A stretch of DNA of 39,392 nucleotides from Microcaldota archaeon. Its GTDB lineage: Archaea; Micrarchaeota; Micrarchaeia; Norongarragalinales; UBA8480. The translations under genes and the position numbers were made by a program. Location: contig JACCLL010000085.1 in NCBI GenBank assembly GCA_013425325.1, positions 1 through 39,392 on the forward strand, in the 5' to 3' direction. Of the stretch, positions 4,535 to 30,700 are shown one piece after another. Position 1 is the first letter of the stretch. Every line of letters begins with the position of its first letter. The notes below the pieces were generated by a model, which did no database searches, was not told the DNA's origin, and worked only from the letters and a program-made list of their open reading frames with translations.

Positions 4535-6253
4535 CTATATTTTTTCGACTGTCAACGACCCTTCCTCAACCGGCTCTTCCGGAGCGGGCGCCGCGGGCTT
4601 CTCCTCTTTCTTCTCTTCAACAGCCTTTCTGCCGAAGCCGAACAGGGACTTTTTCTGCGGAGCAGGCTGTGGCGCCGGCGCGGTTGGCTTAGGCACCGGC
4701 GAAGGCAGCATCTGCTGCGCGACCGGCTTTTGCTGAAGCGCTTGCAAAGCGGACGGGGACTGAACAGGCGCCGCGGGAGCCGCAACGACTGCAACTGCCT
4801 CCGTGCAAGCGGAGTACGCAGGGCGGAGAGTGAAACGCGTCTGGCGTTCTCCTGCTTCGGCTCCTATTGCCGCTCCGTCGACTGCCTCGAACCTTACGTT
4901 GAAGTCGCCGAGCTTCTGCAAGTCCACCTCGTGCTGCGCGTGAACAACCATTCCAACTCCCTGTTTCTTGTACTTTGAGACGACCATTGCCGCCTCGTGC
5001 GCGATTTGCTCGGCATCCTCCTCGAACGCCAAAACCAGCGAAAGCGACGTCGTCGGAGGAACGGGAATCGACTCTATTATAGTCGCGATGAGCATGCGCT
5101 GTATTTCAATAGGATACTTCTTCATGCTCAGCATGAAGACTTTGCCTATCGCGTCGCGCCACGGCGTAGCCAGGTCCGCCGAAATGTTTTTGGCGAAAAG
5201 CGAGGGATAGATTTTCTGCAGCACCAGCAGAGTGCGCACCGCCCGCTTGATGTTGAAGAGAGTGACCGCCTTTGTTTCGCGCATTGAAGACAATTCAGTG
5301 ATTACGTCCGACAGAGAGAACAGCGAAGCGCGCTTCGAGTCGTAAGCCGCCTTGATTGGTTCGGCCACCTCGCTTCCGGTCAAGCCGAAGGCGCGGAGGA
5401 AGACGTCGGAATCCATTTTGCTCATGTCAACGTACAGTCCTTCGCCTAAGTCGAACGCCTTGAACGGAAATCCAGTCGGAGTTCCAGAAATGCCGAATTC
5501 GGCGAAGTGCGACGCGTCCTTGTTCGGCAAGGCAAATCCCTTGAACGACTCGTGAGCATCGAAAATCAGTACGGGAACGCTGTTCTGCAGCGCGCCCTCG
5601 AGCAAAAGGTGCATCAAGTGCAGCCTTGACTCGCGGTTTCCGCCGGTTATCGCAGCGGAGTATAGCGACTCTAGTTTCACTTCAAAGTCTTTTTTCTCGC
5701 GGTCCAGCCCGAGCATGAGCTTCGGAATGCGGAAGGCAGTTTCCACTCCCGTGCCCAACGGCCCTCCGCCGCCGATTGAAGTGTATGAAAACAGCGTAAA
5801 GGGGTCGCCAAGCAGCACCTGGGCTCTTGCGTCGTCGACTGCGCTCAAGTCCTGTATCTTGAATCCGTAAGCGGCGGCAGTGTCTTTCGTCAGAGAAGTT
5901 ATTCCCTCAAGTTCCAAGTGCTGTTTCTTAATCATTTCAACAAGCGCGTCCTGCGAGTAAGGCGCGTACTCCGGCGTTCCTCCCACCAACAAGTAGCGGC
6001 CCGCGTTTTCCTTGGAGTATTTTTCCACCAACGTGACTTCGCGTTTTTGGGCCTGCATGAAGCGCGCCAAGTCGCCTTCCACGTAAAAGATTTTCTTGAG
6101 AAGCATTACCACGCCGGTAATCTTGTCCTCCTGTTTTTCGAACACGAGGAGTAAAACAAGTTTTTCGGGGTTTTGGTAGATGGCCATGGGGTACTTGCCC
6201 CACTGGGCGCTGACCAGCCGAGTCCAAGGCCCGAAGGGCAAATCTAGTTCCAT
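4535..6253 (-). CDS. HerA/FtsK-like protein with degenerate Walker motifs and disordered C-terminal tail
   Basis: 572 aa; AITGGNRESRLHLMHLLLEGALQNSVPVLIFDAHESF matches the layout of HerA Walker A plus following strand, but lacks GxxxxGK[ST]; SLVLAFEEDAEQIAHEAAMVVSKYKKQGVGMVVHAQHEVDLQKLGDFNVRF resembles the HerA Walker B/sensor region. Pro/Ala/Gln-rich tail. Confidence 0.75.
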   Translation of the reverse strand: MELDLPFGPWTRLVSAQWGKYPMAIYQNPEKLVLLLVFEKQEDKITGVVMLLKKIFYVEGDLARFMQAQKREVTLVEKYSKENAGRYLLVGGTPEYAPYSQDALVEMIKKQHLELEGITSLTKDTAAAYGFKIQDLSAVDDARAQVLLGDPFTLFSYTSIGGGGPLGTGVETAFRIPKLMLGLDREKKDFEVKLESLYSAAITGGNRESRLHLMHLLLEGALQNSVPVLIFDAHESFKGFALPNKDASHFAEFGISGTPTGFPFKAFDLGEGLYVDMSKMDSDVFLRAFGLTGSEVAEPIKAAYDSKRASLFSLSDVITELSSMRETKAVTLFNIKRAVRTLLVLQKIYPSLFAKNISADLATPWRDAIGKVFMLSMKKYPIEIQRMLIATIIESIPVPPTTSLSLVLAFEEDAEQIAHEAAMVVSKYKKQGVGMVVHAQHEVDLQKLGDFNVRFEAVDGAAIGAEAGERQTRFTLRPAYSACTEAVAVVAAPAAPVQSPSALQALQQKPVAQQMLPSPVPKPTAPAPQPAPQKKSLFGFGRKAVEEKKEEKPAAPAPEEPVEEGSLTVEKI

Positions 6254-9125: not shown

Positions 9126-9193
9126 ACAGTCACGCGGTTAAAAAACGTTTTCAGCGCCTTCCTGCGAAGCAATTAAAAGCCGCGAAAAAGAAC

Positions 9194-9200
9194 TATTTAA
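9194..9200 (+). promoter_or_regulatory. TATA-like box upstream of the 9222-15680 operon
   Basis: TATTTAA centred about 25 nt upstream of ATG 9222; also GGGGAGGA at 9203-9210. Confidence 0.5.
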
Positions 9201-9221
9201 CCGGGGAGGAACGAGAGTAAA

Positions 9222-10445
9222 ATGCCGCTGAAAATGCTTGTCCGAAGACCGGAAACCTTCAGGACGGAAGCAGTCGAAACAAACGTCGCCGTGCACGCGC
9301 TGACGGAAGGAAAAACTCTTTGGGGCAGAAAAGAAAAAAGACTGCAGCAGATAGGCGGCGACCTGGCCGACATGGTGAACGCGCCTTCTCCGGCAGTCGA
9401 GCACTGGCTTCACCACGTGTTCAAGAACTCCGGTTACTTCCAAGACCACCAGGCTAAAAACCTGGCCGGGTACTTGGCTTTCGACAGAAACTTGCTTGGT
9501 AGAGTAGCGCAAGACGGAGTAGTACACCAAGCGATTCTCGAGCAAACGCGCGCCATTCCGGCAAGCAGCAAAGTGTGGGGAAAAGAACCGCGCATAAAAG
9601 TGCCCGCGACAACCGAGGCAATAGTCAAGCTAAAGTCACCCCGCGTCGCAGACGCGTTAATAAAAGCGCTGGAAGCAAGGCAAGACGGCAGGGAATTACT
9701 TGAAGAAATACGCCGCGCGCCAGCCGAGCCAGAGCACTTTCCGGTCCCCGAAGAACCCGGGGAAAAAGAAGGCGGAGCCGAAGAAGAACCCGCAGGAAAA
9801 GGCGGCAAGCCTCCCTACGGCGTAGAAGAAGGCGAAGAACCACGCGGCGCAAAGGAAGAGCCAGAAAAACCAGCGGAAAAACAAGTTTCTTTACGCGACC
9901 TCATTTGGAAGCACGCGCTCGCCCACCACATTCAACAAAAAGACTCTTCAACGCTTCCGGCGCTGGGCAAAGTCAACGCCAGTCTCCAAGAAAAAAGGCT
10001 TACCGAACTGCTCTTGCGCTCACAGATGTTCGTAAACGAAATGTTTCCGGCGTTGAGGCCGCACAACGTGGAAAACCTGTTTAACGCGGCAGTGCACGCG
10101 GAAGACCACGGCGCGTTCATGAAAAAACTCGGCCAAATGATTGAAGCCAGCACCGGCGAAGACGGCGAACAATACGTTGAAGACCACCGGTTTGAAGGAA
10201 AGCTGCACGAAGACCACAAAACCATTTCCATACTCAACGCCCACAAGCTCAAAGACGAGACGGGAAGGGAGTTGACGGAAAAACAGAAGAACGCCCACGC
10301 GTTTCAGCTGCTCGCAAAATATTTTTCGCACGCTCTGCCGGAGGAAAGGGCGGCGTTGCACAATTACTTGCTCGGCGAAGCCACGGACCAAAACAAGGCC
10401 GCGGCACAAGTCCTGCGTAAGAAAATAGTTGTTTCAGAGGAATGA
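9222..10445 (+). CDS. Uncharacterised protein, C-terminal module shared with the next gene
   Basis: 407 aa; charged/Pro/Gly-rich linker, then VSLRDLIWKHALAHHIQQKDSSTLPALGKVN...HALPEERAALHNYLL, clearly similar to the 10470 product. Confidence 0.85.
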   Translation: MPLKMLVRRPETFRTEAVETNVAVHALTEGKTLWGRKEKRLQQIGGDLADMVNAPSPAVEHWLHHVFKNSGYFQDHQAKNLAGYLAFDRNLLGRVAQDGVVHQAILEQTRAIPASSKVWGKEPRIKVPATTEAIVKLKSPRVADALIKALEARQDGRELLEEIRRAPAEPEHFPVPEEPGEKEGGAEEEPAGKGGKPPYGVEEGEEPRGAKEEPEKPAEKQVSLRDLIWKHALAHHIQQKDSSTLPALGKVNASLQEKRLTELLLRSQMFVNEMFPALRPHNVENLFNAAVHAEDHGAFMKKLGQMIEASTGEDGEQYVEDHRFEGKLHEDHKTISILNAHKLKDETGRELTEKQKNAHAFQLLAKYFSHALPEERAALHNYLLGEATDQNKAAAQVLRKKIVVSEE

Positions 10446-10469
10446 TTGTCTAGAGGGAGGTAGAAGTGC

Positions 10470-12569
10470 TTGACATGGTATGAAACGGAGAAAGGAATCT
10501 ACAAGAAAATGACTGGCAGCTCTCCGCTGGCTCCGCGCGACATTAAAACCGCGGTCTTGAACATCGGAACTCAAGTGGCGGGCGTTGCGCTCGCGGGAGC
10601 GCTTTCGGGAGGAATCACTCTTCCAGCGGCAATGGTTGCCGCAAACGGCTTGCGCCGCATAGACGAGTCAACCGTTTCAATGCTGCCCGCGCGCCGAACG
10701 CGCGACATGGTCGACCACGCGCTGGTAGGCAATTTGACTCCCCGCGACGTCGTCTTGAGCAAGCAAACCAGGCAAACGCTCGACCGCGTTTTCGGAAGCC
10801 ACGACGTGTTCCACATCTGGCAGACGCACGGCCCGGCCGCGGCGGACTCCCTCGCCGTAAGACGCAAGTACACCCTCAGAAGCCAGCAGGACCCCACTGT
10901 TCCCGCGTCCGAAAGAACAGTCGGCGAACGAGCGTACTCGGAAGCCGTGAGCGCGCTCGGAATAGTGGCTCTGCACGACTGGGCCCGAAACCGCGTTGTT
11001 CCGCACATGGGCGGCCCCGTAGCAGGAGCGTCGCACTACAAAACCATAAAGGCAATGACGCCGCACCAGCGAACTGAGTTCTGGAGAAACCTCGACACTC
11101 ACTTGACTCCTGAAGAAAAAGAGATTTACCACAACCTGTGGATCACTAAAATGCAGTCCGGCGCGCAGTTCAGCGGAAGCATGAGCAAAATGATCGGCGG
11201 CTTCCTCGCAATCGGAGCCGGCTCGTGGCTGGAAGGCAAGTTCGGAGTAAACGCCCACACTCACCAGATTTCAATGCAGCATAACCTGAACCAGCTCTCG
11301 CAGGCGGCGCAGGACTTCAGAAGCGCGGCGGACGCAATGCAAAACCTGCACATCGACCCCACTTCGCACACGCCGGTTTTGACCGGCGCGGAAGTAAAGC
11401 TGCAGGGAATAGTCGGACGAGTCGACCCTGAGTTGGTTGCCCGCATCGACGCAGGCGCAGGACAACTTGCTTCCCACGCCGCGCTTCAAGCGCCGGCGAA
11501 CATGGGTTTGCTCGTGCAGTCGCTGCACATGCAAGGCGTTCCCGTGGACGTCGCGCTCGGCTACGCTCTGAACAAAGCCGGGCCCGAAGCAGTGGCGAAT
11601 TACTTGAGCCAGGCCGCAAACCACTTGGACGGAATTACGGCAACGCTTTCATCCGGCGGAATAATGACTCCCGCGCAGTTCGCTTCGCTTCCAGCAGCAT
11701 TGGTTCCACTTATTGCAAGCTACTCGCGCAAGCAATTCCCGCAGTGGCCCCGCGCGCCCGAGGGAACCGGGCCGTACGGCGCGCCCTACGGAAAAACGCC
11801 TTACGGAGCAGGACCGTACGGCGCCCCCGAAGGAAAAGGGCCTTACGGCGCCGAACCAAAAGGCGGTGCTTACGGCGTTTCCGAAGAAGAACCGACGGCG
11901 CCGAAAGGCGGAAAGAAAGCGAAGCCGAAAGCACCCAAGCCAAAGACAACAAAAGAACCCTTGGAAGCAGAGGAAGGCGAAGAAACCGAGGCAGCCGGCG
12001 GAAGGGAAGTCACTTTACGCAACTTCCTGTGGGAATTGGTGCGCAACCACCACTTGACGGAAGCCGACACTTCAACGCTTCCCGCGCTGGGCAAAGTCAA
12101 TTCCAGCCAGCAGGAACAACGGCTTGCAGAGTTATTGGACGGCTCGCTGCGCTTCCTCTACACAATCCACCCGTCGATGAGACAGCACTCCATTGAAACG
12201 TTCTTCAACAAAGCCGGTTCCGCGGAAGGCCATGAGCAGTTCATCGCAAACATGAAGGCCGCGATAAACACGAGCGTAGGCGAAGACCCGGAGCAATACC
12301 TTGACCAACACCACTTCAAAGGAGAACTGCACGACCGCCACAAAATAGTCTCGATAGTAAACCTGCACCAACTGCGGGACAACAAGGAAACCCTCTTGCC
12401 CCAAGAACAACGCGACGCCTTCTCTTTCCACTACCTGTCAAAGCTGTTGAACAACGCCCTGCCCGAAGAAAGGACGGCGTTCGTCAACTTCATGCTCGAC
12501 CACGCGCAGGACTCGCACGACGAACTCAAGCGCGCTCTGCGCACGAAACTCAAGATAGCCCCGGCGTAA
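10470..12569 (+). CDS. Uncharacterised protein with PYG-rich linker, C-terminal module shared with the previous gene
   Basis: 699 aa; TTG start with upstream GAGGGAGGT; Gly/Ala-rich hydrophobic segments in the N-terminal half; VTLRNFLWELVRNHHLTEADTSTLPALGKVN...NALPEERTAFVNFML at the C-terminus. Confidence 0.85.
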   Translation: MTWYETEKGIYKKMTGSSPLAPRDIKTAVLNIGTQVAGVALAGALSGGITLPAAMVAANGLRRIDESTVSMLPARRTRDMVDHALVGNLTPRDVVLSKQTRQTLDRVFGSHDVFHIWQTHGPAAADSLAVRRKYTLRSQQDPTVPASERTVGERAYSEAVSALGIVALHDWARNRVVPHMGGPVAGASHYKTIKAMTPHQRTEFWRNLDTHLTPEEKEIYHNLWITKMQSGAQFSGSMSKMIGGFLAIGAGSWLEGKFGVNAHTHQISMQHNLNQLSQAAQDFRSAADAMQNLHIDPTSHTPVLTGAEVKLQGIVGRVDPELVARIDAGAGQLASHAALQAPANMGLLVQSLHMQGVPVDVALGYALNKAGPEAVANYLSQAANHLDGITATLSSGGIMTPAQFASLPAALVPLIASYSRKQFPQWPRAPEGTGPYGAPYGKTPYGAGPYGAPEGKGPYGAEPKGGAYGVSEEEPTAPKGGKKAKPKAPKPKTTKEPLEAEEGEETEAAGGREVTLRNFLWELVRNHHLTEADTSTLPALGKVNSSQQEQRLAELLDGSLRFLYTIHPSMRQHSIETFFNKAGSAEGHEQFIANMKAAINTSVGEDPEQYLDQHHFKGELHDRHKIVSIVNLHQLRDNKETLLPQEQRDAFSFHYLSKLLNNALPEERTAFVNFMLDHAQDSHDELKRALRTKLKIAPA
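11748..11880 (+). repeat. In-frame degenerate tandem repeat encoding PYGA/PYGK-type units
   Basis: Encodes APEGTGPYGAPYGKTPYGAGPYGAPEGKGPYGAEPKGGAYG; recurrent cc(g/t)tacgg(c/a) codon strings. Confidence 0.8.
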
Positions 12570-12579
12570 GATGGTTTGA

Positions 12580-14331
12580 ATGGCTGAAAGGCTCCGCGTG
12601 AGGCCCCGCGGCCGGCTGCGCCTCGGCGGCGCGCCCGAAGCCCAGCGGGAAGAAAAAGAAGAGCGGAAGCCCCCTGTTTTTGCCCCAAAGCCGTCTTTAG
12701 GCAAGCCAAGCGGACTAAGGCTGCCAGTCGAAAGGCCCCGCCTGCGAATCCCGGTTCCAAAACCCGCTGAAGAAAAGCCCGTTGAAAAACCCGCGGCGAA
12801 ACCGATTGAACCGGCGGCCGAAGAAAAACCGCTGGCGCCAACTCCAGCCCCAAAAAAGCCGGTTGCTCTTTTTCCCGAGTCCAATCACGTGGTCGTAATT
12901 CCAACGCGCAACCGCCCGGGAAGACTGGCGACGCTGCTTGAAAGTATTCTTGAGAACACCAAGAAATTCGGTTACGACAAGCGCATCAAAATAGTGGTGG
13001 TCGACGACTCGGACGCGGCGGAGGCGGCGAGAAACCAGGCAAGGGTAAGCACGCTCGAGAAAAAGTCCGGCGGACGGCTCGAGCTCCACTACTACGACAA
13101 GTCGGACCAACAGCGTTTGGTGAAATCGCTGGAAGAACAACTCGCGTTGTCGGGAATAGACCCCAAGGAATTCATTTACGAGGAAGGAAACCGCAAGGGA
13201 TTCGGCGGAGTGCGCAACATGGCGTCGTTGATTGCGCAAAGACATGCCAAGACCGACAGCATCCTCACTTTCCTGGACGACGACACCATGCTGAAGAACC
13301 TAGTGTTCAAAGGCGGGGAACACAAGCTGGCGTACACAAAGAGCTTCTTCCACGAGCTCGACAAAACTTTTGCCGCTCCCGACGTGAACATGATCGGCGG
13401 CGAAGTGACGGGCGACGGAAGCGGCGGAATGTTCTACCGCGTTTCCGACGGCTTGAGTTACTTGGAAAAGTTTTTCCTCAACGCCCGCGAAAAAAGCCCG
13501 CGTTCTTCCTCGGACGACGCCCAGAGGCAAATGATTGGAACCGTCGCGTTGCCCGGGCTTTCAATGAAAGACGGGCTCAAGAAAATGGGCAGCCTCACGG
13601 CACAACTTCCTTCAGGAAGAGACCGCTTCAGGGTAATCACTACCGACGTCCTCTCCAAGCAATACAAGTTCGACAAGAAAACCGTGCACCGGACGGACTT
13701 GGTTCCCGGCGCGAACGTCAGCCTCCGCGCCAGCGTAGTAAACCAGATTCCCTACTTCCAGTACAAGGGCCTGCGCGGGGAAGACGTGATAATGAGCTGC
13801 GCGGTCAACTCACTTCTCGGAGGAGTGTACATAATCAACAACCCCGTCGCGCACTTCAGGGACCAGGCAAACCGCGACGTCGTCCGCGAGTCAATTGCGG
13901 ACATGACGTGCCACCCAGTAATAGAAGCGCTGAGGGAAGCAGCTGGCGGCAAGGGAAGCTTCGTCGAAGCACTAAAAGCGTATTCTACTGACAAGGCAAA
14001 GCCACACGTCGAAGGCATTCTTTACTCCTACCCCGGCAACCGCATAAGCATCTGGCAGAACAGGCTGCCGATGCTCAAGCAAATAATTCACGGGGAGAAA
14101 AGCGCGTGGTGGCTCAAGCCCGAGCACGCGAACTCAATGAAGAAAATCAATTCATTCCTGCAGCACCTGGAAACACGCCTGCCAACAGCAAGAAGGGAAT
14201 TGCATGACAGCATTTCCGCCGACAAAGTCGCGCAGGCGCTGCGCAAGTACGGCAGAATGCTTGAAACCTGGCGCCAGGTAACCGAAGCGGCCCGGTTGGC
14301 AGAATTGAAGGAACGGAGGCGCGCGGCTTGA
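12580..14331 (+). CDS. GT2-like (GT-A fold) glycosyltransferase with long Pro/Lys/Glu-rich N-terminal extension
   Basis: NHVVVIPTRNRPGRLATLLESILENTKKFGYDKRIKIVVVDDS and ILTFLDDDTML (DxD-like) are GT2 signatures. Confidence 0.85.
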   Translation: MAERLRVRPRGRLRLGGAPEAQREEKEERKPPVFAPKPSLGKPSGLRLPVERPRLRIPVPKPAEEKPVEKPAAKPIEPAAEEKPLAPTPAPKKPVALFPESNHVVVIPTRNRPGRLATLLESILENTKKFGYDKRIKIVVVDDSDAAEAARNQARVSTLEKKSGGRLELHYYDKSDQQRLVKSLEEQLALSGIDPKEFIYEEGNRKGFGGVRNMASLIAQRHAKTDSILTFLDDDTMLKNLVFKGGEHKLAYTKSFFHELDKTFAAPDVNMIGGEVTGDGSGGMFYRVSDGLSYLEKFFLNAREKSPRSSSDDAQRQMIGTVALPGLSMKDGLKKMGSLTAQLPSGRDRFRVITTDVLSKQYKFDKKTVHRTDLVPGANVSLRASVVNQIPYFQYKGLRGEDVIMSCAVNSLLGGVYIINNPVAHFRDQANRDVVRESIADMTCHPVIEALREAAGGKGSFVEALKAYSTDKAKPHVEGILYSYPGNRISIWQNRLPMLKQIIHGEKSAWWLKPEHANSMKKINSFLQHLETRLPTARRELHDSISADKVAQALRKYGRMLETWRQVTEAARLAELKERRRAA

Positions 14332-15680
14332 AAGAAAAACTTCCGGAACTGAAGATAATCGGCCACTCCACCGGCGCAGTCGGCGAAGTGACGAACGCCT
14401 CCAAAATACTCGGAATAGCGCGCGAACACGGAATCCGCGCTTCGCTTCACGACGTGTACCACGCGCTCGACGTTTCCGAAGAAGAGTTGAACAGCGTATC
14501 CGACTACCACTGGAAAGTCCTCAACAAGGGAGGCGTCGTGAAAAGCGTTCAAGAAATCAAGGACATGGGCCCGAGAGTAAACGCAATGCGCGTAAACGCC
14601 GGAATCAAGTCGCTTGTCGACCCCGACGCGCCCCGCGGCCAGCAAGTCGCCTACTTGATTACAATGCCCTGGCGCCAGATAGGCATCATTGCTTCCGGCG
14701 TAACCAAGGAAATGCCCACAATTTCAAGGTACTACCCGACCAAAGTAGAGAACTCCAACACCTACGCAAAAGCCCTTTCCGCCGCCCACGTGGTAAGCAC
14801 AATCAGCCCAACTGGCTTGTTGAGCGCCGAGCGAATAGGCATTCCAGCTGGAAAAACCATTTTGATCCAACACAGCTACCCCCCTGAAGCCGACGCGTTG
14901 TTCAAGACAAGCGAGGAAGAACGCGAGGAAGGAAAACGCCGGCTCATCCAAGGCGTTGCAGCCGCGATGGGAAAGAAAACCAGCGTTTCCAAGAACGCCG
15001 TCTTGTTCGCGTCAGTCAACCGGCTCGTTCCTGAAAAAAACCAAGTGCAGTTGATTCGCGCGTTCAAGAAAATAGCGGCAGAAAACCCCAACGCGTTTCT
15101 CCTGATTAAAGACGAGGGATGGCGCACGCCCCACGAGCGCGAGGAATTCGAGAAAGTCATCGAGGAAGTGAAGGACGAGCCGTGGTTCCTGTGGGACAAG
15201 ACGCGAACGCCTTTCCCGGACGTGCTGCGCACGCACTACCTGCCGGCGGACGTGATGGTCAACTTGAGCGGAAGCGAAGGCGCGGCCACCAACTTGATTG
15301 AAGCAGCCGCGCTCGGAAGGCCCATTCTCACTCTCGACGCAACAACCCACCCCCATTTATTCAAGGGAGCCGCGTTGTTCGCGAAAAGCACTCCCGAAAG
15401 GAAGATAGGACCGGTTTACTCCGCAGGAGTTGACGAAGAAGACCTGGCGCAAAAGCTGTCGCTGCTGGCGAAAGACGAGGGCCTGCGCAGGGAACTCGGC
15501 GGCAAAGCCAGGCAAGCGGCAGTAAACCGTTTTTCCAGGGAAGCCGTTCGCAGGAAAATAGAGACCGCAATTCAAGCAGCGCGCGCGTTCCACTCGGGAA
15601 ACGCGGAAGAACGGGAAAAGTACAAGCGCATTCTGGAAAAAATGCGGGAAGACGACTTGAAGCTGTTCGGCTTGAAGTAA
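14328..15680 (+). CDS. GT-B fold glycosyltransferase (GT4-like)
   Basis: FASVNRLVPEKNQVQLIRAFKKIAAENPNAFLLIKDEG and LPADVMVNLSGSEGAATNLIEAAALGRPILTLDA match GT4 C-terminal motifs; TTG start in a TTGA overlap with the upstream stop. Confidence 0.85.
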   Translation: MKEKLPELKIIGHSTGAVGEVTNASKILGIAREHGIRASLHDVYHALDVSEEELNSVSDYHWKVLNKGGVVKSVQEIKDMGPRVNAMRVNAGIKSLVDPDAPRGQQVAYLITMPWRQIGIIASGVTKEMPTISRYYPTKVENSNTYAKALSAAHVVSTISPTGLLSAERIGIPAGKTILIQHSYPPEADALFKTSEEEREEGKRRLIQGVAAAMGKKTSVSKNAVLFASVNRLVPEKNQVQLIRAFKKIAAENPNAFLLIKDEGWRTPHEREEFEKVIEEVKDEPWFLWDKTRTPFPDVLRTHYLPADVMVNLSGSEGAATNLIEAAALGRPILTLDATTHPHLFKGAALFAKSTPERKIGPVYSAGVDEEDLAQKLSLLAKDEGLRRELGGKARQAAVNRFSREAVRRKIETAIQAARAFHSGNAEEREKYKRILEKMREDDLKLFGLK

Positions 15681-15695
15681 AAAAAAGAGGAAGTT

Positions 15696-15716
15696 GAGCG
15701 GGAAAAAGACCCGCTC
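15696..15716. terminator. Perfect 7-bp inverted repeat between convergent genes
   Basis: GAGCGGG-AAAAAGA-CCCGCTC in the 46-nt gap between the 14328 (+) and 15727 (-) genes. Confidence 0.45.
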
Positions 15717-15726
15717 TGTAAAGAAG

Positions 15727-16194
15727 TTAGCGCCGGATTTTCGTCCAGATTTTCTTGAACCACGCGCCGCGCGCTTGTTTCTTGCGGAGCTTGAGTTCCA
15801 GTCCGCGGGTGTACGCCTGCGCGTAGCTGCGGTGAAGCTTTGCTTCTTCCTGATAGTTGGTAATGGCTTTTTCGACCAGCGACTTGGCCGTGCTCGGGTC
15901 CACTAAGTGGGCTTGCGAAATTACGTGGTGCTTCGTTGCCTCGAAGAGCCTCTTTTTCTCGGGAGATTCCTTTATCACGCGAGCCGTCAGGTCCTTCGTC
16001 CAGTTGTGTATAAAGTGGTTTTTGTTGCCGTGAATGAAATTAGCTTTCTTCTCGCTTTCCTCGGCCATTGCCAAGTGCCTTTCAACTGCCTTCTGGGTTC
16101 CCTTGATAGTAACTTTCGTCATGACCAAGGGCTTGTTGAACTTTGCCGGCTCTCTTTTCGCGAGAGCGGCTTCGGCTGGTTTCGCGGGCTCCAT
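15727..16194 (-). CDS. Basic helical protein, unknown function
   Basis: About 155 aa; Lys/Arg-rich C-terminus; ATG 16194 preferred over TTG 16197; AAGGTGAT SD-like sequence and TATA-like box upstream. Confidence 0.75.
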   Translation of the reverse strand: MEPAKPAEAALAKREPAKFNKPLVMTKVTIKGTQKAVERHLAMAEESEKKANFIHGNKNHFIHNWTKDLTARVIKESPEKKRLFEATKHHVISQAHLVDPSTAKSLVEKAITNYQEEAKLHRSYAQAYTRGLELKLRKKQARGAWFKKIWTKIRR

Positions 16195-16228
16195 CAAAAA
16201 TCACCTTGCACTACTAGTGTCGCGAACG

Positions 16229-16236
16229 ATATAAAA
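16229..16236 (-). promoter_or_regulatory. TATA-like box for the 16194 gene
   Basis: TTTTATAT about 39 nt upstream of the ATG. Confidence 0.5.
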
Positions 16237-16260
16237 TGGTTTGCTGTCGAGGCAAAAAGG

Positions 16261-16270
16261 ATTTATTAAG
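16261..16270 (+). promoter_or_regulatory. TATA-like box for the FHA-like gene
   Basis: ATTTATTAAG about 49 nt upstream of ATG 16314; GGAGG SD-like element at about 16302. Confidence 0.45.
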
Positions 16271-16313
16271 CTGAAAAACCAACAGTTTTCCAAGTTAATG
16301 CGGAGGCAGCAAA

Positions 16314-17849
16314 ATGGAGAAATCAAGGTTTCCTCTCAAACTGGTAGGAATAGAGGGAGAGCTAAAGGGAAAGGAAATAGTCTTAAACCGCGAACACTCG
16401 AGCATCGGAACCAAGAAAGGATTCCACATACGCCTTTTGAAAGACCGCCGCATAGATGCCTTCCACGCCACGATAGAACGACGCGAGGGACCCAACGGCT
16501 TTGCGTACTCCATTTCCCCACGAGACGGCCTCGTTTTCTTAAACCACGATTTTATCTTTGACCGACGGCCCCTAAAGTACGGCGACGAAATAAAAGTAGG
16601 CAGAACGAAATTCGTATTACAAAAACACTACCAGCCAGAGTTCACGGACCAGGAAGTGCAGGACTTCTTCCTAAAAACCGCGGGAACGGCGCACGTTTGG
16701 TTCCCGCCCGCACTGAAGAAAAAAATATACTCCGCGTGGACTGTTGAAAAAGCAACAGGCTATTTTCTCCCAGACCGACTTAAGGAAAACGAGATTGCCC
16801 AGGCGGCGACCGCCGCGGAAACAATAGTGTCGGCCCTTGAAAAAGCCGGCGCGACGGGCGTAGGCCACAAAATAGTTAACAGCGTAATGAAAAAAGCAAA
16901 CGAAGCCATAACCCCCTCGGAAGCCATTAACGCACTAGAGTCGCTTGTTCCAATAGCCAAGCAAATTCCCTCGATAGTAAATCAGAGCGAGGCCTACACC
17001 TACTCGGACTTGGCCAAAAAATACCTCGATGACCAAGTAAAAAAACTTGCGGCGTTCCCCGACCAAGAACTAGACAAGACGAAAACGCCTCCAGAAATAA
17101 TAAAAGAGATTCACGCCCGCGGAGTCACTCCGGAAATACAGACACGAAGCGGCGAACCCACCTTAGTCCTGACGCTGCCAGAAATAACGCCCAGAGACAT
17201 GAGGGCAATGAAAGCGGAAATAGGCTGGGAAGCCGAATACCCGCAGTACGCGGCACGAATTGCAACCGACACGGCCACCGACTTGTTCTCCTCGACGCTC
17301 GACGCGCGGCACTTCGACTGGTGGCTCGAACATGAAAAAACCACCACTAAAAAAGGATGGAGCCTAGTAGTATCGCCGCGCACCAACGAAGGCACCAGGC
17401 TTCTGGCTAAAATGCGAACAACTATTCCAATGGAAGCCGGCAAGCACAAGGAAGCCGCGCAGGCCGTCATGGAAGCAATAGCGAAACAGCCCGTTCCTCT
17501 CGAGACCAGCGTGCAACTACTCGGAGAACCAAGGAAGCCGACCCTCATACTCAACATGCCGGCGGTCACCTACGAACACCTGAAGAAGGCAGGCTGGCCC
17601 GCCAAGGAAAAAGAAGTCAACGCCCACCGGGACGCCTTGACCGACCTCATGGCCGACCAAGTTAAAAGCAACCTGTTCACAAACGCGATAGACCGCTCCC
17701 ACTTCGCGGCAAAAATCCAAATTCCTTCCGTAATAATAGGAAACTCGGTAAGCCGGCAAATAATATTAACTCCCAAAACCAACGAGGGAGAACACTTGTT
17801 CGAACAACTCGCGAAAATAATTGAAGAAAAAGCACGCAAACGCAAGTAA
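16314..17849 (+). CDS. FHA-like domain protein with internally duplicated C-terminal region
   Basis: N-terminus LKLVGIEGELKGKEIVLNREHSSIGTKKGFHIRLLKDRRIDAFHATIERR...GLVFLNHDFIFDRRPLKYGDEIKVGRTKFVLQ follows the FHA strand order; two related C-terminal blocks PTLVLTLPEIT...VSPRTNEG and PTLILNMPAVT...LTPKTNEG. Confidence 0.75.
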   Translation: MEKSRFPLKLVGIEGELKGKEIVLNREHSSIGTKKGFHIRLLKDRRIDAFHATIERREGPNGFAYSISPRDGLVFLNHDFIFDRRPLKYGDEIKVGRTKFVLQKHYQPEFTDQEVQDFFLKTAGTAHVWFPPALKKKIYSAWTVEKATGYFLPDRLKENEIAQAATAAETIVSALEKAGATGVGHKIVNSVMKKANEAITPSEAINALESLVPIAKQIPSIVNQSEAYTYSDLAKKYLDDQVKKLAAFPDQELDKTKTPPEIIKEIHARGVTPEIQTRSGEPTLVLTLPEITPRDMRAMKAEIGWEAEYPQYAARIATDTATDLFSSTLDARHFDWWLEHEKTTTKKGWSLVVSPRTNEGTRLLAKMRTTIPMEAGKHKEAAQAVMEAIAKQPVPLETSVQLLGEPRKPTLILNMPAVTYEHLKKAGWPAKEKEVNAHRDALTDLMADQVKSNLFTNAIDRSHFAAKIQIPSVIIGNSVSRQIILTPKTNEGEHLFEQLAKIIEEKARKRK

Positions 17850-17852
17850 TCT

Positions 17853-18185
17853 TCAAACGCGATACACTTGAGCGTGCGGCACTCCCGCCACTTTCTTCAC
17901 GCTTTTTTCACCCAACGAAGGCAGTACCTTGCGCAGGCAGGCAACCGACTTTTCTCCAACCACGTTAAGGCTTGAGCGCGAGTCTTCCAAAGCGTTCTTC
18001 AGCATTTTTTCGGCTTCTTTTTCTCCGACTTTCTCTCCCTTGTAGAAGGAAGCATTTACCTTCAAATCCAAGACTACTTTTCCTTCCTCGAAAGACTTGC
18101 CTAACAGCGCAGCATCGCAGAGCGCAAGCACTCTGCGCGCCGAGCCGTCGGCGAAAGTGCGCGAATGCTTTTTGGCGTACAGCAA
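17853..18185 (-). CDS. DUF424 family protein
   Basis: LYAKKHSRTFADGSARRVLALCDAALLGKSFEEGKVVLDLKVNASFYKGEKVGEKEAEKMLKNALEDSRSSLNVVGEKSVACL...VAGVPHAQVYRV; GxPHAQ ending and LLGKxFxEG match DUF424. TTG 18185 begins 2 nt after the upstream TGA. Confidence 0.8.
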   Translation of the reverse strand: MLYAKKHSRTFADGSARRVLALCDAALLGKSFEEGKVVLDLKVNASFYKGEKVGEKEAEKMLKNALEDSRSSLNVVGEKSVACLRKVLPSLGEKSVKKVAGVPHAQVYRV

Positions 18186-18187
18186 AA

Positions 18188-18835
18188 TCAGCTCGTGCAG
18201 TTGAAAGTGGAGACCATGTAGTCGAAGGTCACGGAGTCTTGTTGAAGAGAATCCGGAATTGCGGCCATCAACGCGGCCACGTACGAAGTTCCATCCGGCT
18301 TCCTGCAGTTGAAGAAAGCGCCGCGCAGGAAAACCCGTTCGTCTTGCTCGACGAATCCCCTTGTTTCTCCTCTTCCGGTCCAAACCGTTTTTCCGCTTAA
18401 AGTGGTTTGGTTGAGTGAATAGCCTTCAACTCCCTCGAAGGCGTTGGCTGCAACTTCTTCGACTGAAAGCCGTTCGTTAACGCCGACGTCTATCACTTCA
18501 GCAGACAGGATCCTGTCGTAAGAAGAAAACGGGTTGTTCGCGGTAAAACGCAGGCGCAGGCCGAAGTCCGGGTCGACGTCCGCGCGGTATCCCGCGGGGT
18601 AATTGATTTCAAAACCGTACAAGTCGTCGTAGTAATGCATCATTTCAGTTGAAGCAACTTGCTGCGGCAGCGCCATTGGCTCGCCCCGCGCAGCCAACGC
18701 AACGGGAGTCTGGCCGGTCATCTGCTGTGCCTGCTGCTGGACGTAGAAAGACATTGCAACCATGAAGACGATTACGACAATAAACAACGCAATCAGCGTG
18801 CGCCTTCCTCTTTTCGCCAAAGTACTCAAAACCAT
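18188..18835 (-). CDS. Membrane-anchored extracytoplasmic protein, possibly PsbP/Mog1-like fold
   Basis: N-terminal TM TLIALFIVVIVFMVAMSFYV; YGFEINYPAGYRADVDPDFGLRLRF resembles the start of PsbP-like domains (weak). Confidence 0.7.
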   Translation of the reverse strand: MVLSTLAKRGRRTLIALFIVVIVFMVAMSFYVQQQAQQMTGQTPVALAARGEPMALPQQVASTEMMHYYDDLYGFEINYPAGYRADVDPDFGLRLRFTANNPFSSYDRILSAEVIDVGVNERLSVEEVAANAFEGVEGYSLNQTTLSGKTVWTGRGETRGFVEQDERVFLRGAFFNCRKPDGTSYVAALMAAIPDSLQQDSVTFDYMVSTFNCTS

Positions 18836-18846
18836 TTTTCTTCTCC

Positions 18847-21800
18847 TCAGCTAGCGCTTTCTCCGGCTCCCCTTCCAGTTCCCGTGTCCTCGCGCTGGCT
18901 CTGCAGCCTGCTTATTTCAGCGGCGCCAAGCGTTCCTCCCTTGACTGCCACGTTGGTCAGAGGCGCGTCGTCGGGCGCGAACACCGACTTGAAGAACTGC
19001 TCGGCGTTAACGCGCGGGTTGTTTATTGCCATCAGCAAGTCGTATCCCTGTGGCGAAGCGGCTGCAAACGACGTAACCGGCGTCTGCAGCAGGCACGCGG
19101 CGTAATTCGAGTTGCAGGCGTTGCCCAAGTAGAACGACTCTTCCGCAATGCAGCCCTGCGCCGTCTTGACGCAGAGCCTGTCGACGGTCGAGAAGTACGA
19201 GTCTCCGGGACTGCCGCTCAAGTGGTATGAAACAATGTGCGACGGAACAAGCGGGTCCAACTCGGCTTGCACTGGCCTCATGTCAGTAGTAAACAACAGC
19301 GTCGACGCAACCTGCAGTGCAATCCTGCCTGCCTGCGCGCGGCGCAGCGCGTCCCTTGCCCGTGAAATCCGTCCTCCGCTCGCGGCAGCGCCTGCGTCGG
19401 CGGCAGCAGCCGCGGCAGCCTCTTCTCCGGCAACGCGCGTTGCCGCTTCGGCGGCGGGAGTGCGGATTACCGAACGCTCTATCAGGTTAGTCGTTTCTAC
19501 CGCTCGGGCGGTAGTGAGCAGTTGTTGGTCTAACAGTCCTGCGGGCGAGTTGACAAAACCCGGCGTGCGCCATCGTTGAACGACTTGTCTTGCCACGTCT
19601 TCTGTGATGGTAGTAGTTGTAGGCAAGCCGGAAGTGCGTGCCAAGAAAGTTCTCTGGAAGTTTCCTTCAACGAATTGCGCGAGGCTGCCCTGTGACTCGG
19701 CTTCGGCAAGTAATTGTTCGAAAGCCATTCCAGGAGTGAGTTGCCCGTTGCTCGCAAATACTCTTTGCGCTATTTCAGCGCGGATTGGCGCGGGCGCGGC
19801 AGTAAGAGGAGATTGAGTGTAAAGCATGGTGTAGCCCCTGCCTCCCGCGGTACCGATGCCGTTTACGTTACCCATTTCACTAGCCAAAGCAACGTCATCG
19901 ATAATGTTCGCCGGAAGCCCTTGGGTTACCGTGACTCTGCTGAACGTGCCTGCGTCAATTAGTTCATCCGCGCCCCTCCTGAACAAAATGCGCAGTTCTC
20001 CTGCCGCAGTTCTTTCGACTGCAGCGTCGCCCACTAGCTGCCTCAGAAAATCTTCGGTTCTCTGCGCTCCAAGCACGCGAGCCCTGGCTAATCCAGTGAT
20101 TGCCGCATCGTCAGTCAAGGAAACGGCTTGCAGGCCGTGTTCTTGAGCGATTCCGTTCAGCGTATTCTGCGGCAGCCCCGCAAGTCTCGTTGCTTCCGCT
20201 TGAACCAGCGCGTCTTGCGCTTCACGCAAGGCCACGTCGGCAGCGGCCCCGCCCCTGACGCGGTTTCCTATTTCCCCGGCGAGGGCGCCGTCGGCAACTA
20301 TTCCGTTTGCCGCAAAGAAGGCAGCCAAGTCCGCTTCCGCTCCGGCAACGGCAGTGGGCGCGGTTGTTTGCGCAACTGCTTCCGCGGGCGTGGCCTTAAT
20401 TCTTGAGGCGTAAACTGCGCTTGCCGCAAGCGGAACCGTGGCCGAACTGGTTTCGCTAGCGTCCGAAGCAAGCAGGTTGACTGCCGCGCTGGTGCCGCCG
20501 GCAATTCCGGCTAAAACCAGTCCGCTGCGAAGCGCCTGGCGGCGCGTAATGTCTTCTGCAGTCCTCGTGACTATATTACTGCCTACTCTCGCGGCAAGGC
20601 CTCTTCCCAACGCAACTTGTCCTCCGGTGGGCAGCAGTGCGCTGACTATTCCGTATATTCCGGATGAAATGCAGTCGTTGACCATTCCACAAACGGCTCC
20701 GCCTGGCGGCGAAGTAGCCGTTTCGGCTATGCCCATGCCGGCGCATATTGCGACTGCCTGTGCCATGCCTTGGGCAACGCGTATGCACACGCCTTGCCCG
20801 CCTGGAATCAAGCAGGACGCCAGAAGGCCAGTGCCGATGCCGTACATGGTTCCGAGAATGTATTTTCCGTGGTCCCAGCAGAACTCGCCGTCGTCGTAGT
20901 AAGCAGCCGGCGCGGCGTAGTGTTCCTGGCCGCCGTACAAGTACTGGTACAACGACGTTGCCGCTTTAGCGTCGCGTTCGTTGGGTTCGGTTGCGTAAGG
21001 CCCGACGGCCATTACGCCGATGTCAAACATGTTGAGTAAAGTCGACGGACTCGAGAAGTCAACGCTGCGCGCGTTGCTCATGATGCGTTCGGGCAAGTCG
21101 AGGACTCTGCTGAATTCGCTTGGCCAGTCGGACAGCCTGTGCCCCACATTGACTCCGAGTTCGTCGGGCGAGTTGCCTCGCAGGAACAACGCGGCGTTGG
21201 CGAGGTTTTGCTCGCAGTCCTGTATTTTCTGCACGCGCACGCGGATGCCGACTTCGTTGCGCCAGCTGGCGTCGGCGTGAGAACCGGCGGCCTTGCACGC
21301 GTCGATGGTTGCAGTGACTTTGTACCACCCGCAGCCGCGCACGCTTCCGCCGGTAATGCCTTCGAAGTAGTCGCGGTAGCTGTTCGAGACTTGTGCGCCG
21401 CCCGCTTCCTGGCGAAGCATTTTGTTGAACTCGTCAAGCGACTGGTTTGCAGCAACTTTCTGTAAAATAATCGATTTAGTCAGCAGGCCCTGGCTTCCCA
21501 AGACCGTGTGCTCGCAGAAGAACGTGTTCGTTTCCTGCGACTTGGTTATGGAGTCCAGGTAGGACTTCATGTTCGAAAGGAATGAAACGTATGCGGAACG
21601 CGTTTGTTCGGCGTCGCAGAAAAACTTCTGGCACGTAATGAAACTCGTGTCCGCCTCGGGCATTTCTTCGACTGCGGACTGGACTACGACGCGTTCCTGA
21701 AGCGGGGCAGGGGGCTCGTCCGCTCCCTCGTCTTGCAGGCTTACTTTTTGTTTTGCGGCCATTTGCTCGCTTGAAGCGGCTTGGGTTACCGCCTGCGGGG

Positions 21801-24800
21801 GAGCGAGTTCGCCGACGGGCGAAGCCGAGTAAAGTTCGCGCGCTTCCGGCGTGGCGGGCTCCGGGAAGACGACCACCAATACGCTCTTTTCAGTCGAGTT
21901 TCCCGTGCGCGTTCCAGTGAAAGTGATTTTCAGGTTTCCGTCTCCCTGCCTTACGGAAGTGCAGCGCACGAGCTGCGCGTCCCCAGCGGACATTGAGGCG
22001 GGAAGCTCGCATTCGACTGGAGCGTCTCCGCTTGCGGAAATTTCCGCCGGCTCGAGCAAGTTGTTCGCAAGGGTCAGGAAGCGGTATTGGCCGGGCGACT
22101 TGAACGACAGTTTCATTGGGCCCTGGGTCCGCTCGTTGTTCCAGTCGTCCGCGTAGTTGACGAAAACGCCGTGCAGCGAGTTGTTGACGTCGAACACGCG
22201 GTTGTAGACGCAGCCGTTCCTGCTCCTTGAAATCTTTATTTTCACTGGAAGAGCCCAAGTGCCCTGCCAGTCCTTCTGGTTCTTTGCATGGAACGTGATC
22301 GAACCGTTTATCCAACCGTCTTTGGCGACGCAGCCGTTTGCGTCAATCCAATCCGAACTCGCGGCCGAGAGGCTGGCTTCAATTACGAGGCGGTTGCACT
22401 GGCGGTTCTGGAAGTCAAGCGCAAGGTTCGCGGGAGTTCCAACGAGTTGGCCCGAGAAGTAAATGCGGTCGCGGGAAATTATTTGGGAGAACGCCTGCTG
22501 GTCTATTGGCGACGAAATGCTTTCCACGTAATGCTCTCCCGAGTAGGGGTAGAGCAACTGGCTTCCTGAATTGTAGAGGCAGACTTCCTTCTTGTCGCTC
22601 TGGTGCTCGTCGCTAAGCGAGAAAGTGAGGTTGGCGGGCGAGCCGCTCAAGTAATCGCCGGTTCCGTGCACGCTGACCGGACCGGACGCGTCGCACGGCA
22701 GAATCGACCACTCTTCTCCTTCGGGAATGGTTGTTTCCCACAGCGTTGAACCGTCGGCTTGCTTGACTTCCCGGCCTATGGCACTTTCGGGGAAAACTAT
22801 TCTGCGGACTGACGAAACGCTTACGGCAACCGAGCCGCGTACGTCAAGCGGCATGCACGAGTCGAAGTCTACTTTATAGCGCCTCGGCGGTCCCTCGTAG
22901 CCCGGCGGAAGAATTATTGTCACCGGCTGGCGCTGGGTAATAGACAAAAGTTTTTGGTCGTCGTCGGTAATGTCGAGGCAGGTGTAAACCTTTATTTTAG
23001 AGCCGGGCGGAACGCGTATTCTTCCGCTCCTGCCGGTTCCTTCAAGGGAAGCGCCTTCGACGAAAACCGCTCTCGCTGCGGGCGTCGTGTGCGTGAACTT
23101 GCCGCTTTTCGCGCGAATAGTCAAACGAGTGCACTCGGACAAGTTTGCCATGACGCCGCCGGCGACTTGATAGGCTTGCGCGTCGGACGGGAGTTCGAGA
23201 ATCGTTTCCTCGTCGTACTGGAAATCCATTTCGCCCAAGTCGGTTCCCGTTCTTCCGAAGGCAACCGGAGTGTTGGGCGGAATTTGCGCGATTACTCCGT
23301 AGCCAGGCGCTTGCGCAATCGGAGTGTTCGGCGGAAGAATGACGTACGCATTGCGCAGGTTCACCCTCAAGCCCATTGCATCGGGTTGTTGCTGCGCGTC
23401 GGCCGGAAGCTGGATGAAAACCACTGTCGGAAAACGCACTATCACGCTGTTGCTCGACAGCGAGAGGGGCGAAACAGGGCCGACCGACTGGGCGTAGCGG
23501 GACGACATTACGAATGGAACGCCTGCCGGAACAACGGCCTGTTGCTGGTTTACTGAAGCCGTTTGTTCGAATGAAGTTCCCGACGAGTACAACGACGGGT
23601 CGCGGTAGTAAGCGGAAGTCGCGGTGGACGAGTAGTAAGGAGTATTGCCGTACGGGTCGTAGCTAAGCGAGTTCTGCGCGCGTTCGGCCGCGTAGCCGCC
23701 GTACATTGAAGAGCCTTGGTAGAACACGAGCTTGTCCTTCGAAGGCAGGAGCACTGGAATCGAGCCGTCGTCCGCAGGCTGTCCGCGGATTACGGTTCCA
23801 ACCGGGAACTTGAAGACAACCGGAACGGGAAGCGTGAACACGAGTCCGTCGTCCAGATAGCACCTCGAGGAAGCAAGGATTTCGACGTTGGCCTTGACGA
23901 GTTTCTTTACCGAAATGGACTGCATTGCAATCCTGAACTCGAGGTCCACTTCCTGCGTCGTGTCCTCGACTATGCAGCGGTCGTTCAGCGACTCGCGCGG
24001 AAGAGTTGCGGTGACGGTGAACTCGCGGGATTGCCCGGGAGCGATTTGGGCCGACAATGGCGTTATGCGGACGTTGCGCTGGCTCGACTGCTGGTTTACT
24101 ATTACGGGAAACGGACTGAGATTGGTTACGTTCAGTTTCTCGGTCTTCTTGGCTTCGCGAGGCGGGTTGATCGAAAAATCTATTTCTTCAGTCGACACTT
24201 CAACCAAGTCAGCCAACGCCTGTTGCTGAACAGAAGTCGAGGCGGTGAAGCGAACGTCGGCCTCTTGCGTGGTTTGCGCAAGCTGGCCCAACACGTGTAC
24301 TCTCCCCGAAACTTTTTCGGAAAGCGTCCCCGCCTTCATTGCAACAGTCAGAATCGCTTGGGAAACCACTGCGCTGAACCTCAACTGCTTTTCTTCCTTT
24401 GCGCGCAGCGTGAAAGCCGGTTCGCTCAGCAACAAATTAGTGTACAAGGGATTTTCGTCGGGAATTACCGCGGCGCTGACGCGCACGTCGTTCTCCAACA
24501 AGTTGGTCAAAGAAATTTCGGCGGGCTCCTGTTCGCCTTTCTCGGTTCCCGTAGTTACGCTGACTGAACTTGGTTCTATCGAAAACAGTTTTTGTGTCAC
24601 TACGTTCAGCGTTCCCTTCTTTGTACGGAAGCCTTCGGCGCTTACTTGGTAGTCGACTTCGCCGATTCTCTGCGGCTCTATTCCGTCTATTACGTAAACG
24701 CCTTCCGCGTGCTGCGCGCTTCCTTCCTCGGACGCGCCAGACGACTCGAAGGTTGTTCCGAGCGCGTCGTCCTCCACTCCCAACGAAACTCTTGCGCTGG

Positions 24801-27693: not shown

Positions 27694-27720
27694 CCCATGT
27701 TTTACAATGCTTTTTCGTCC

Positions 27721-27728
27721 TTAAAAAA
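27721..27728 (-). promoter_or_regulatory. TATA-like box for the 2948-aa gene
   Basis: TTTTTTAA about 31 nt upstream of TTG 27693. Confidence 0.4.
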
Positions 27729-27742
27729 GGAAAGGAAAAAAA

Positions 27743-30700
27743 TCAAATGCTTGACAACGGCGCGTAAACCCACGCGCAGTGCTGCTGCACGGCCTCCGTT
27801 CTTCCGGAACGCGTGTGGATTGCACGGAGTTGTAAGTTGTGCGCGTTCTGGCTTATCACCCAGCCTTCTTCGCAGACGAACAACTCTATTATGAAGTTAG
27901 CCCACGAAGACGAGACGCCAGTTAGCGTGGCAGTCTGTTCGCCGGTGGCGTCACCTGAAGCCACTTTCTTCCACACCCAACCCGAGGAACCGCTTGTGTT
28001 AACAGCTGCAAGGACGTAGACGTTGCCTGGAGTTGCCTTAAAGCGAGCCGTGACGGTATTGCCTTGGCTTTGGAATTCAGCGCCGTCAATTGAAACGTCC
28101 CCGTCGCCACTCTGCGAGTGGCTTCCAATTGCTCTCGACCATCCGGAGGTGTACGTAAAGGAAGGTTGAGCGCTAATTGCTGGTTGGCTGCTCGACGGCT
28201 GCGCAAGTCCGCCGCCGGCTTCGACTGCAGGAACTTGCGGAATAGTGTACTCCAACAAGTTAGCCTGCATTCCGATGACGCTTACGCGCACAATTGTTTG
28301 GCCGTTATCGTCGCTGTTCAGTTGCTTGAGGCCTATGGCAAGAAGCAGCGTGTCTCCGAACGAGTTCGACTTCAAGTCTATTCCAGTACAGCCGGCGTCA
28401 CGATTCGCAGGCACGTCGGAGTGGCCGAGCAAAGCGATTCCGGAGTAAGTGCAGGTTTGCGTCCGGTCCGACTGGCCGGATGTTTTCTTGATCACATCTA
28501 TTTGTATTTTGCGGTTTGCTTTCACAAACGCGAAAGCAGGATAGGCTCGTGTAAATGAGGGTTGGTTTCCCCACGCGAAGATTATGTTCGGCTGGAATTC
28601 AACCGTCAAGCCGCACGTCGCAAAGGATGAAAGGGGACATGCGAGGTCGTAGTCGAATGCCGTAAACGCAGGCACGTGAATAGAGGTTACTGCAGACGTG
28701 GTTGGTGCCGACGGCTGCGTTGGCGGCCGTGGTTCGACAATGCGCAAGTGAGTAAGGCTGGCTCCGGCTGGGGTAATCTCTGCGCCCGGACAGCGTGCAA
28801 CTAGTTCGAAGGGTTCCTGGCTCTGCGACAGTATAATCGTCTTGCAAGGCAGGTTAGTTCCGCGGAAGTAGCTCAAGTCGTACGACTCGTCTGCGAAGTA
28901 CTGCAAAACGGCCTTCGTGAAGTTCAAAGCACTGTCGTCTTGCGCAACGCCGGCGGGGTATGCCCACGGGTGTTTCACGAACACTCTCAGCTCGGGCCTG
29001 CCGAAATCGCCTTCGGGCAGCATGCGGATGATTACTACGCCGTCGGTGGCGTTGATGCACTTCTTTCCGCTTACTTCGCCGCTTGCGGGGCAGTCGTTGT
29101 TCTGCCGCACGTCAAGCCAGGCCGGCGGAATACTATCGTCGTTGTAACCGCATTTTGCGGTCTCGATGTTTCCGCCCGTGTCCTCGCAGCTTACCACCAG
29201 AATTTCTTTGCCCGGCTTCAGCTCGGCGTTGGCGGACATGGGGGCGCTTACCGTTGTCGAGGTTGCAGAAGCAGCGGGAGCGCCAGTTGTTTGCGTTCCT
29301 GTTCCAGCTGGGGGCGTTTGCGTTCCAGTCGACGGCGAGCTCAGATCGCTCGCAGTCAATTGAGTAGCTGGCAAAATTATGTTTGAGTCAAGAGGAATGT
29401 TGTTGAAAGATTTTTTGTAGTTCGTACCACTACAATCAATGCCCGCGAAACCGATGGTCACGTGTTCATTGTCGCTCAACAAGACACTGAACAACAGGGA
29501 ATCGATAGTAAAACTGAAAACGGCCTGGCCCGCTTCGAAAGTATTGCCTACTTCTGAAGCATATACCGATGTTCCGTCACTCAGTTCTATCCACGCCATT
29601 TGCACGTCGCCGACGCAAGGTTGTCCTGAAGGATTGTTGAAAATAGCTGAAACGCCCACTTCTGTCTCGGCAGGAGACAGGCTCAACGGCAGTTCACTTC
29701 GAGCGTGTGAAACGGTGGCAGGCGCCTGGCCTGTTTGCGTTCCTTGCAGGAAGCCGACGATGTCGAGTTGGTCGTAGTTGATTTCCGCGGGCGTGCCTTT
29801 CACTGGTTCAGTGAGCGCCTTGAGCTTGTACTTGTTTAGCGTCGGCAGGGTTGGCGCGTCGCTGACTTGCACTTGGTAGTAGCCGCTTGGAGCTCCCGAT
29901 TGCTGGTTTGTCAAGCTCTTGTAAGCGAGGTAGGGGAAGCGGTTTTCTATTTCTGGCGTCGCCAGCCAGTCGCTTATGCCGGTTGCGGCATTGCCTATTA
30001 CGGTTTTTATCCAGCGGTAGGGCAGCGAACCGAGTTGCTGGAACCACTTGGGCTTGTTCGTTAACGTGAATGCTCCTGGCTCGTGGTAGACTGAAACCCA
30101 GTTTTGTCCGTTTGCGTCAGTGTTTCCGGCGGCTATTTGGTCGAGGATGCCCTGCAAGTCCTTTGCCCTGAGCTGCAGCAAGCGCGGCCCGTTTCCTTCC
30201 TCTCCTCCGCCGAGCGTGTCTGCTTTCTTCAGGACCAGGAAGAAGTCGGGCAACTCGCCTTGCTGGTCTATCAACGGCGACGCCGGCGGGGTAACCAATT
30301 GTCCCTGGCCCAGCGCTCTTCCAAACGCCTGGCGCAAGAGGTTTCTGGCGCGCTCGTCTCCGAAAATGCTTTCCATTGACTGCAGGTTTTGTCCCATTTG
30401 AGTTCCTTGGCAGAACACGTTCTCTATTGCGGTCCCAGCCGAGGAAGTTATTGAACCGAAGTTGACGTTTTCGTCTTCGCCTTCCTCTATTTCCTCTTCT
30501 TCTTCGTCGTAATTGTTGTCGCTGCAGGCTTTCATGAACGTCTTGCACACTGCTTCGCTCGCGCGGTCGGCAATCATTTCCGTAGCCAACTGGTTCAAGC
30601 AGTTTTCGAATCCCGCGTCCTGCAAGTCAGTGAAACTGCGTTTGTAGACGTACGGCACTTGAGAATAGGACTTGACTACGCCCAAGCGCACGGCTTCCTG

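Follow-up and report, generated by a model that had tools for sequence, protein, structure and literature searches.

A shared C-terminal module on two adjacent, otherwise unrelated proteins encoded near giant surface proteins of a Micrarchaeota archaeon

Two neighbouring genes in a Micrarchaeota genome (G000) encode proteins, here called A and B, that carry the same C-terminal module on N-terminal domains of two separate families. The genes were analysed in a window, the whole stretch of 39,392 nucleotides, and compared with relatives in an order-level set of 29 genomes. The comparison points to one chromosomal site at which tails were copied to an adjacent position at least three times, a count that rests on three cases, with three unrelated modules. 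It is this recurrence of tail copying, next to genes for giant surface proteins, that makes the pattern interesting. Three unannotated protein families were defined: the A N-domain, the B N-domain and the module.

The module, its carriers and their locus

The two module copies align without a gap over 187 columns at 42% identity, and the similarity spans the whole module rather than a few short words. This agrees with an earlier note on this DNA, which had reported a C-terminal module of about 185 residues in both proteins, at 9885–10442 and 12009–12566; each copy is one codon longer (Table 1). The whole proteins match each other with a BLASTP E value of 1e-49, and their Smith–Waterman score of 413 compares with a mean of 36 and a maximum of 59 in 500 shuffles. 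The N-terminal halves, which had looked unrelated to the note, indeed have no detectable relation (score of 40, against 33 ± 5 in shuffles). The linker upstream of the module is rich in Pro, Tyr, Gly and Glu in A and B alike. The PYG repeats of B start just upstream of its linker (residues about 430–470) and are followed by a Lys/Glu/Pro-rich stretch, and the B N-domain has a Gly/Ala-rich hydrophobic stretch near residues 27–60.

At the 78 identical residues of the module copies (M and W excluded), the same codon is used 49 times, where codon usage predicts 36.7 (p of 0.001 by simulation), with the identical codons densest at STLPALGKVN. This excess indicates that the duplication is not old enough for saturation, or that a tract was converted later.

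The module is C-terminal, follows a flexible linker and is carried by different partners. The earlier proposal of a portable domain duplicated in tandem is supported by relatives in which the B or A N-domain lacks the module or has another tail. A paralogue of the B N-domain in the same genome (43% identical; contigs C93 and C81, which overlap by 141 bases) ends at about residue 436, before the linker and module. An orthologue in G017, which belongs to another family of the order, is 28% identical and has an unrelated tail, and the A orthologue of G001, from the same genus as G000, has a different tail, unrelated to the module. The A N-domain also recurs elsewhere in the order, in no fewer than five further genomes (G001, G002, G004, G018 and, more weakly, G022); in these and in G000 its gene is close to genes for giant surface proteins or to the gene that follows them. 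The B paralogue without the module is flanked by two genes for large extracellular proteins, judged by eye to be C25 (gingipain-like) peptidase-like.

A and B are genes 1 and 2 of an operon that continues with a family-2 and a family-1 glycosyltransferase (gaps of 24, 10 and −4 bases). The operon sits in a variable cassette (window positions 9138–18188) within a conserved backbone. One flank of this backbone encodes giant surface protein 1 together with the PsbP-like membrane protein; the other encodes small membrane proteins, DNA polymerase B, a HerA-like protein and a protein resembling peptidases. G007 has the backbone but lacks the cassette, and the cassette site, bounded by the gene for the PsbP-like protein and those for the small membrane proteins, is also variable in G001 and G014. 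Giant surface protein 1 has relatives in 28 of the 29 genomes, and the PsbP-like protein directly follows it in most genomes examined. Full-length homologues of the family-2 glycosyltransferase occur in G000, G003, G006 and G018, and in all four the gene directly adjoins the module gene or an A-type gene. Both giant proteins (18847–36097) contain Tyr/Gly-rich low-complexity stretches, like some of the A/B-type linkers.

Table 1 Features of the A/B locus in window coordinates.
Feature	Position	Strand	Remarks
HerA/DUF87-like protein	4535–6253		
Protein A gene	9222–10445	+	407 aa
A N-domain (about residues 1–173)	9222–9740	+	Order-level family
A linker	9741–9881	+	Pro/Glu/Gly-rich, one PYG motif
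Module copy 1	9882–10442	+	187 aa, predicted all-helical; stop codon 10443–10445
Protein B gene	10470–12569	+	699 aa; TTG start
B N-domain (about residues 1–437)	10470–11780	+	Paralogue in G000 (C93/C81), orthologue in G017
B linker	11781–12005	+	Low-complexity
Module copy 2	12006–12566	+	187 aa; stop codon 12567–12569
Family-2 glycosyltransferase	12580–14331	+	10 bases downstream of B
Family-1 glycosyltransferase	14328–15680	+	4-base overlap with family-2 gene; same operon
FHA-like protein, cassette neighbour	16314–17849	+	Weak FHA domain, below Pfam cut-off; internal duplicated domain
Membrane-anchored PsbP-like protein	18188–18835	−	
Giant surface protein 1	18847–27693	−	2948 aa
Giant surface protein 2	27743–36097	−	2784 aa

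Tails at the same site in related genomes

The B orthologue of G017 (927 aa) and its neighbour (577 aa) share a C-terminal module of their own (Z of 13, 0 of 1,000 shuffles as good), preceded in both proteins by a Pro/Tyr-rich linker. The gene for the 577-aa protein comes after giant protein 1 and the PsbP-like protein. When its tail was searched against the whole G017 genome, it matched exactly the neighbour (E of 2.7e-7, or 6e-17 with the linker included), and no relation to the module of the window was detectable. In G014, from the same genus as G017, a relative of the 577-aa protein occupies the same place, with a different tail and no B gene. A partial repeat of the tail of the A orthologue in G001 starts about 10 bases downstream (E of 3.5e-12 and 3.6e-8, Z of 8.4), and a stop codon interrupts it. 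Taken together, the cases of the window's genome, G017 and G001 amount to three unrelated tails, each copied next door at one site. No tail copy in a neighbour was seen in eight further genomes, which makes the event recurrent but not universal.

The module itself is present in two copies in the window's genome and in one copy each in G003 and G006, of the same family, both of which lack B. Beyond these, the 295 genomes of the phylum yielded no further copy except a collinear candidate of marginal similarity in G018, located where a module would be expected, for which 2–7 of 1,000 shuffles scored as well and hhalign gave no support. The single copies of G003 and G006 are 24–26% identical to that of A, against 42% between A and B, which places the duplication on the lineage of the window. 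A kinship of the N-domain of the G003 and G006 module proteins with that of A or B was considered and found unsupported.

Possible roles of the shared tail

Shared tails on unrelated proteins usually denote a common address, and different heads on flexible linkers, with the same tail and in one operon, are most simply read in this way. We tentatively favour the view that the A/B tail is a docking or oligomerization address, and that A and B may belong to a single complex associated with the giant surface proteins and with the glycosyltransferase encoded after B. Each protein consists of an N-domain and a predicted helical C-terminal module joined by a flexible, low-complexity linker, and the two would dock on each other or on a common partner, bringing two different N-domains into one complex. 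Because tails turn over among relatives yet agree inside any one genome, binding probably involves the tail itself, in a tail-to-tail contact, or else a partner that co-evolves with it. As partners, the glycosyltransferase whose gene comes next and the cytoplasmic ends of the giant proteins would be likeliest. The enzyme is the leading candidate, since its full-length homologues, in 4 of 29 genomes, each stand directly beside a module or A-type gene; docking on the tails of the giant proteins is guesswork from gene order.

Ancestrally, the module gene would have been single, as in the relatives with one copy beside the same glycosyltransferase. On the lineage of the window, the tail of A would then have been copied to the adjacent B, whose N-domain occurs elsewhere without the module. 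The simplest order would lead from a module on the core gene, through a tandem copy of the tail, to fusion of that copy with the B N-domain. We infer this order from the single copies of G003 and G006, which have no B, together with the module-free B N-domain, and the direction of copying rests on four genomes. A bolder version, which we consider rather unlikely, is that addresses are swapped: the core gene A would carry a docking module particular to each lineage, of which any gene newly joining the complex would gain a copy, so that matching tails would mark membership of one surface-associated complex, with rapid turnover as in a self-recognition or arms-race system.

Dockerins and the docking domains of polyketide synthases are known docking domains or tails of modular scaffolds. 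They resemble the module as short portable C-terminal units that follow flexible linkers and bring different activities into one complex; they differ in that the A/B module has no sequence or fold match, and its docking role is putative. The contact of Micrarchaeota with their hosts is poorly understood, and the pattern offers a way to find the partners of their giant surface proteins: as shared tails usually are addresses, the same trick with three unrelated modules would provide a testable route to them.

Bacterial type IV secretion effectors, whose C-terminal modules include BID and XVIPCD, share this layout, in which one helical module ends proteins whose N-terminal regions are otherwise unrelated. 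By analogy, A and B could be exported cargoes with different N-terminal activities, recognized by one such module. The machine would then consist of the giant surface proteins and of membrane proteins encoded nearby, and the Gly/Ala-rich hydrophobic stretch of B would fit this. We nevertheless regard secretion as improbable. The tail of A and B shows no sequence relation to BID or XVIPCD families, with no match in Pfam or NCBIfam, and it is swapped between close relatives instead of being conserved with the surface machinery, which is order-wide. The A N-domain behaves as a structural part would, being conserved and staying linked to the locus. The HerA/DUF87-like neighbour, conserved in the order, has no recognizable Walker A motif in four aligned orthologues, so that no motor is visible at the locus, and no VirD4 or VirB4 motor with an intact Walker A was found in the neighbourhood examined; the HerA-like protein may be an inactive ATPase that serves a structural purpose. 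The attraction of a secretion signal comes from Nanohaloarchaeota, in which giant, membrane-anchored surface proteins of the SPEARE type, with a VirB4/TraG-like ATPase, were read as part of type IV secretion (PMC10266531). At the locus next to A and B, a DPANN archaeon likewise has genes for giant proteins that are anchored in the membrane and carry repeated extracellular domains, but A and B are small accessory proteins, and no VirB4 domain was detected among the proteins scanned here. It appears equally improbable that the module is a recognition handle for the two co-encoded glycosyltransferases, which would modify Tyr, Ser and Thr of the A and B linkers. The direct neighbourhood of a module or A-type gene and the same glycosyltransferase in four genomes is consistent with this, as are the PYG or YGG-type motifs that recur in the linkers of B, G018 and G017. 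However, G003 has the glycosyltransferase yet no YG enrichment in its linker, the enrichment in A is trivial, and G017 combines PYG-rich linkers with the lack of a homologue of the family-2 enzyme.

The few recurrences (three) and the stop-interrupted copy in G001 mean that the tandem duplication could also be neutral: a duplication-prone site would copy the 3′ end of A, with the duplicate sometimes being fused to an incoming gene and having no functional meaning. The variability of the cassette site, which in G001 also holds toxin–antitoxin-like genes, is in keeping with such a by-product, but we consider it unlikely, as the duplicated part is the module every time and not a random stretch. 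Moreover, neither copy in the window is interrupted, and their 42% identity across 187 residues without a gap suggests that they are under purifying selection. The same variable cassette, together with the nucleotidyltransferase (MNT)/HEPN-like and AbiEii-like toxin–antitoxin genes inserted around the site in relatives (judged by eye), would suit a defence or toxin–antitoxin pair in a genomic hot spot. This is very improbable for A and B, given the absence of matches in PADLOC and in viral contigs and the tie of the A N-domain to surface genes.

Family, fold and origin searches

The earlier note had recognized no family, and the searches found no match to a well-described one. Neither A nor B has a match above the curated cut-offs of Pfam, PHROGs, NCBIfam and PADLOC, or any among PDB sequences; in the four profile collections, A gave zero matches and B only sub-threshold noise. 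The NCBIfam profile CPR_pilus_PamT on B (E of 0.005; score of 16 bits, cut-off 240) was taken as chance, and armadillo matches in the PDB reflect a 25-residue chance similarity to designed repeats. No viral contig matched, leaving a viral origin unsupported, and a module search of the genome contigs collection returned nothing. The literature yielded no description of such an arrangement in Micrarchaeota.

The AlphaFold2 model of the module, built as a single chain and not as a complex, is all-helical with moderate confidence (pLDDT of 72.8 and pTM of 0.77; one good model of five), and that of the B N-domain has a pLDDT of 37. Foldseek searches with the module model gave best E values of 2.1 (PDB) and 0.97 (viral structures, BFVD) against a threshold of E <0.001, a weak negative because the model itself is of moderate confidence.

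Further observations concern proteins around the locus and in relatives. Within the FHA-like protein, a domain is duplicated (Z of 12.8). The cassette of G003 also encodes an FHA-like domain, after an HPr-kinase-like domain, and both this domain and that of the window narrowly miss the Pfam cut-off. A domain common to the FHA-like protein and to G003 49122–50216, suspected by eye, was unsupported (Z of 0.5), as was a relation of the module to a domain of about 95 residues of the RHGxL type in G003 and G006 (hhalign probability of 0.1). The latter domain is expanded in genus g3 only, with 13 matches in G003 and 16 in G006, and is carried by numerous proteins; a methyltransferase and a P-loop-like protein encoded close to the surface-protein locus are among them (G003:C20 and G006).
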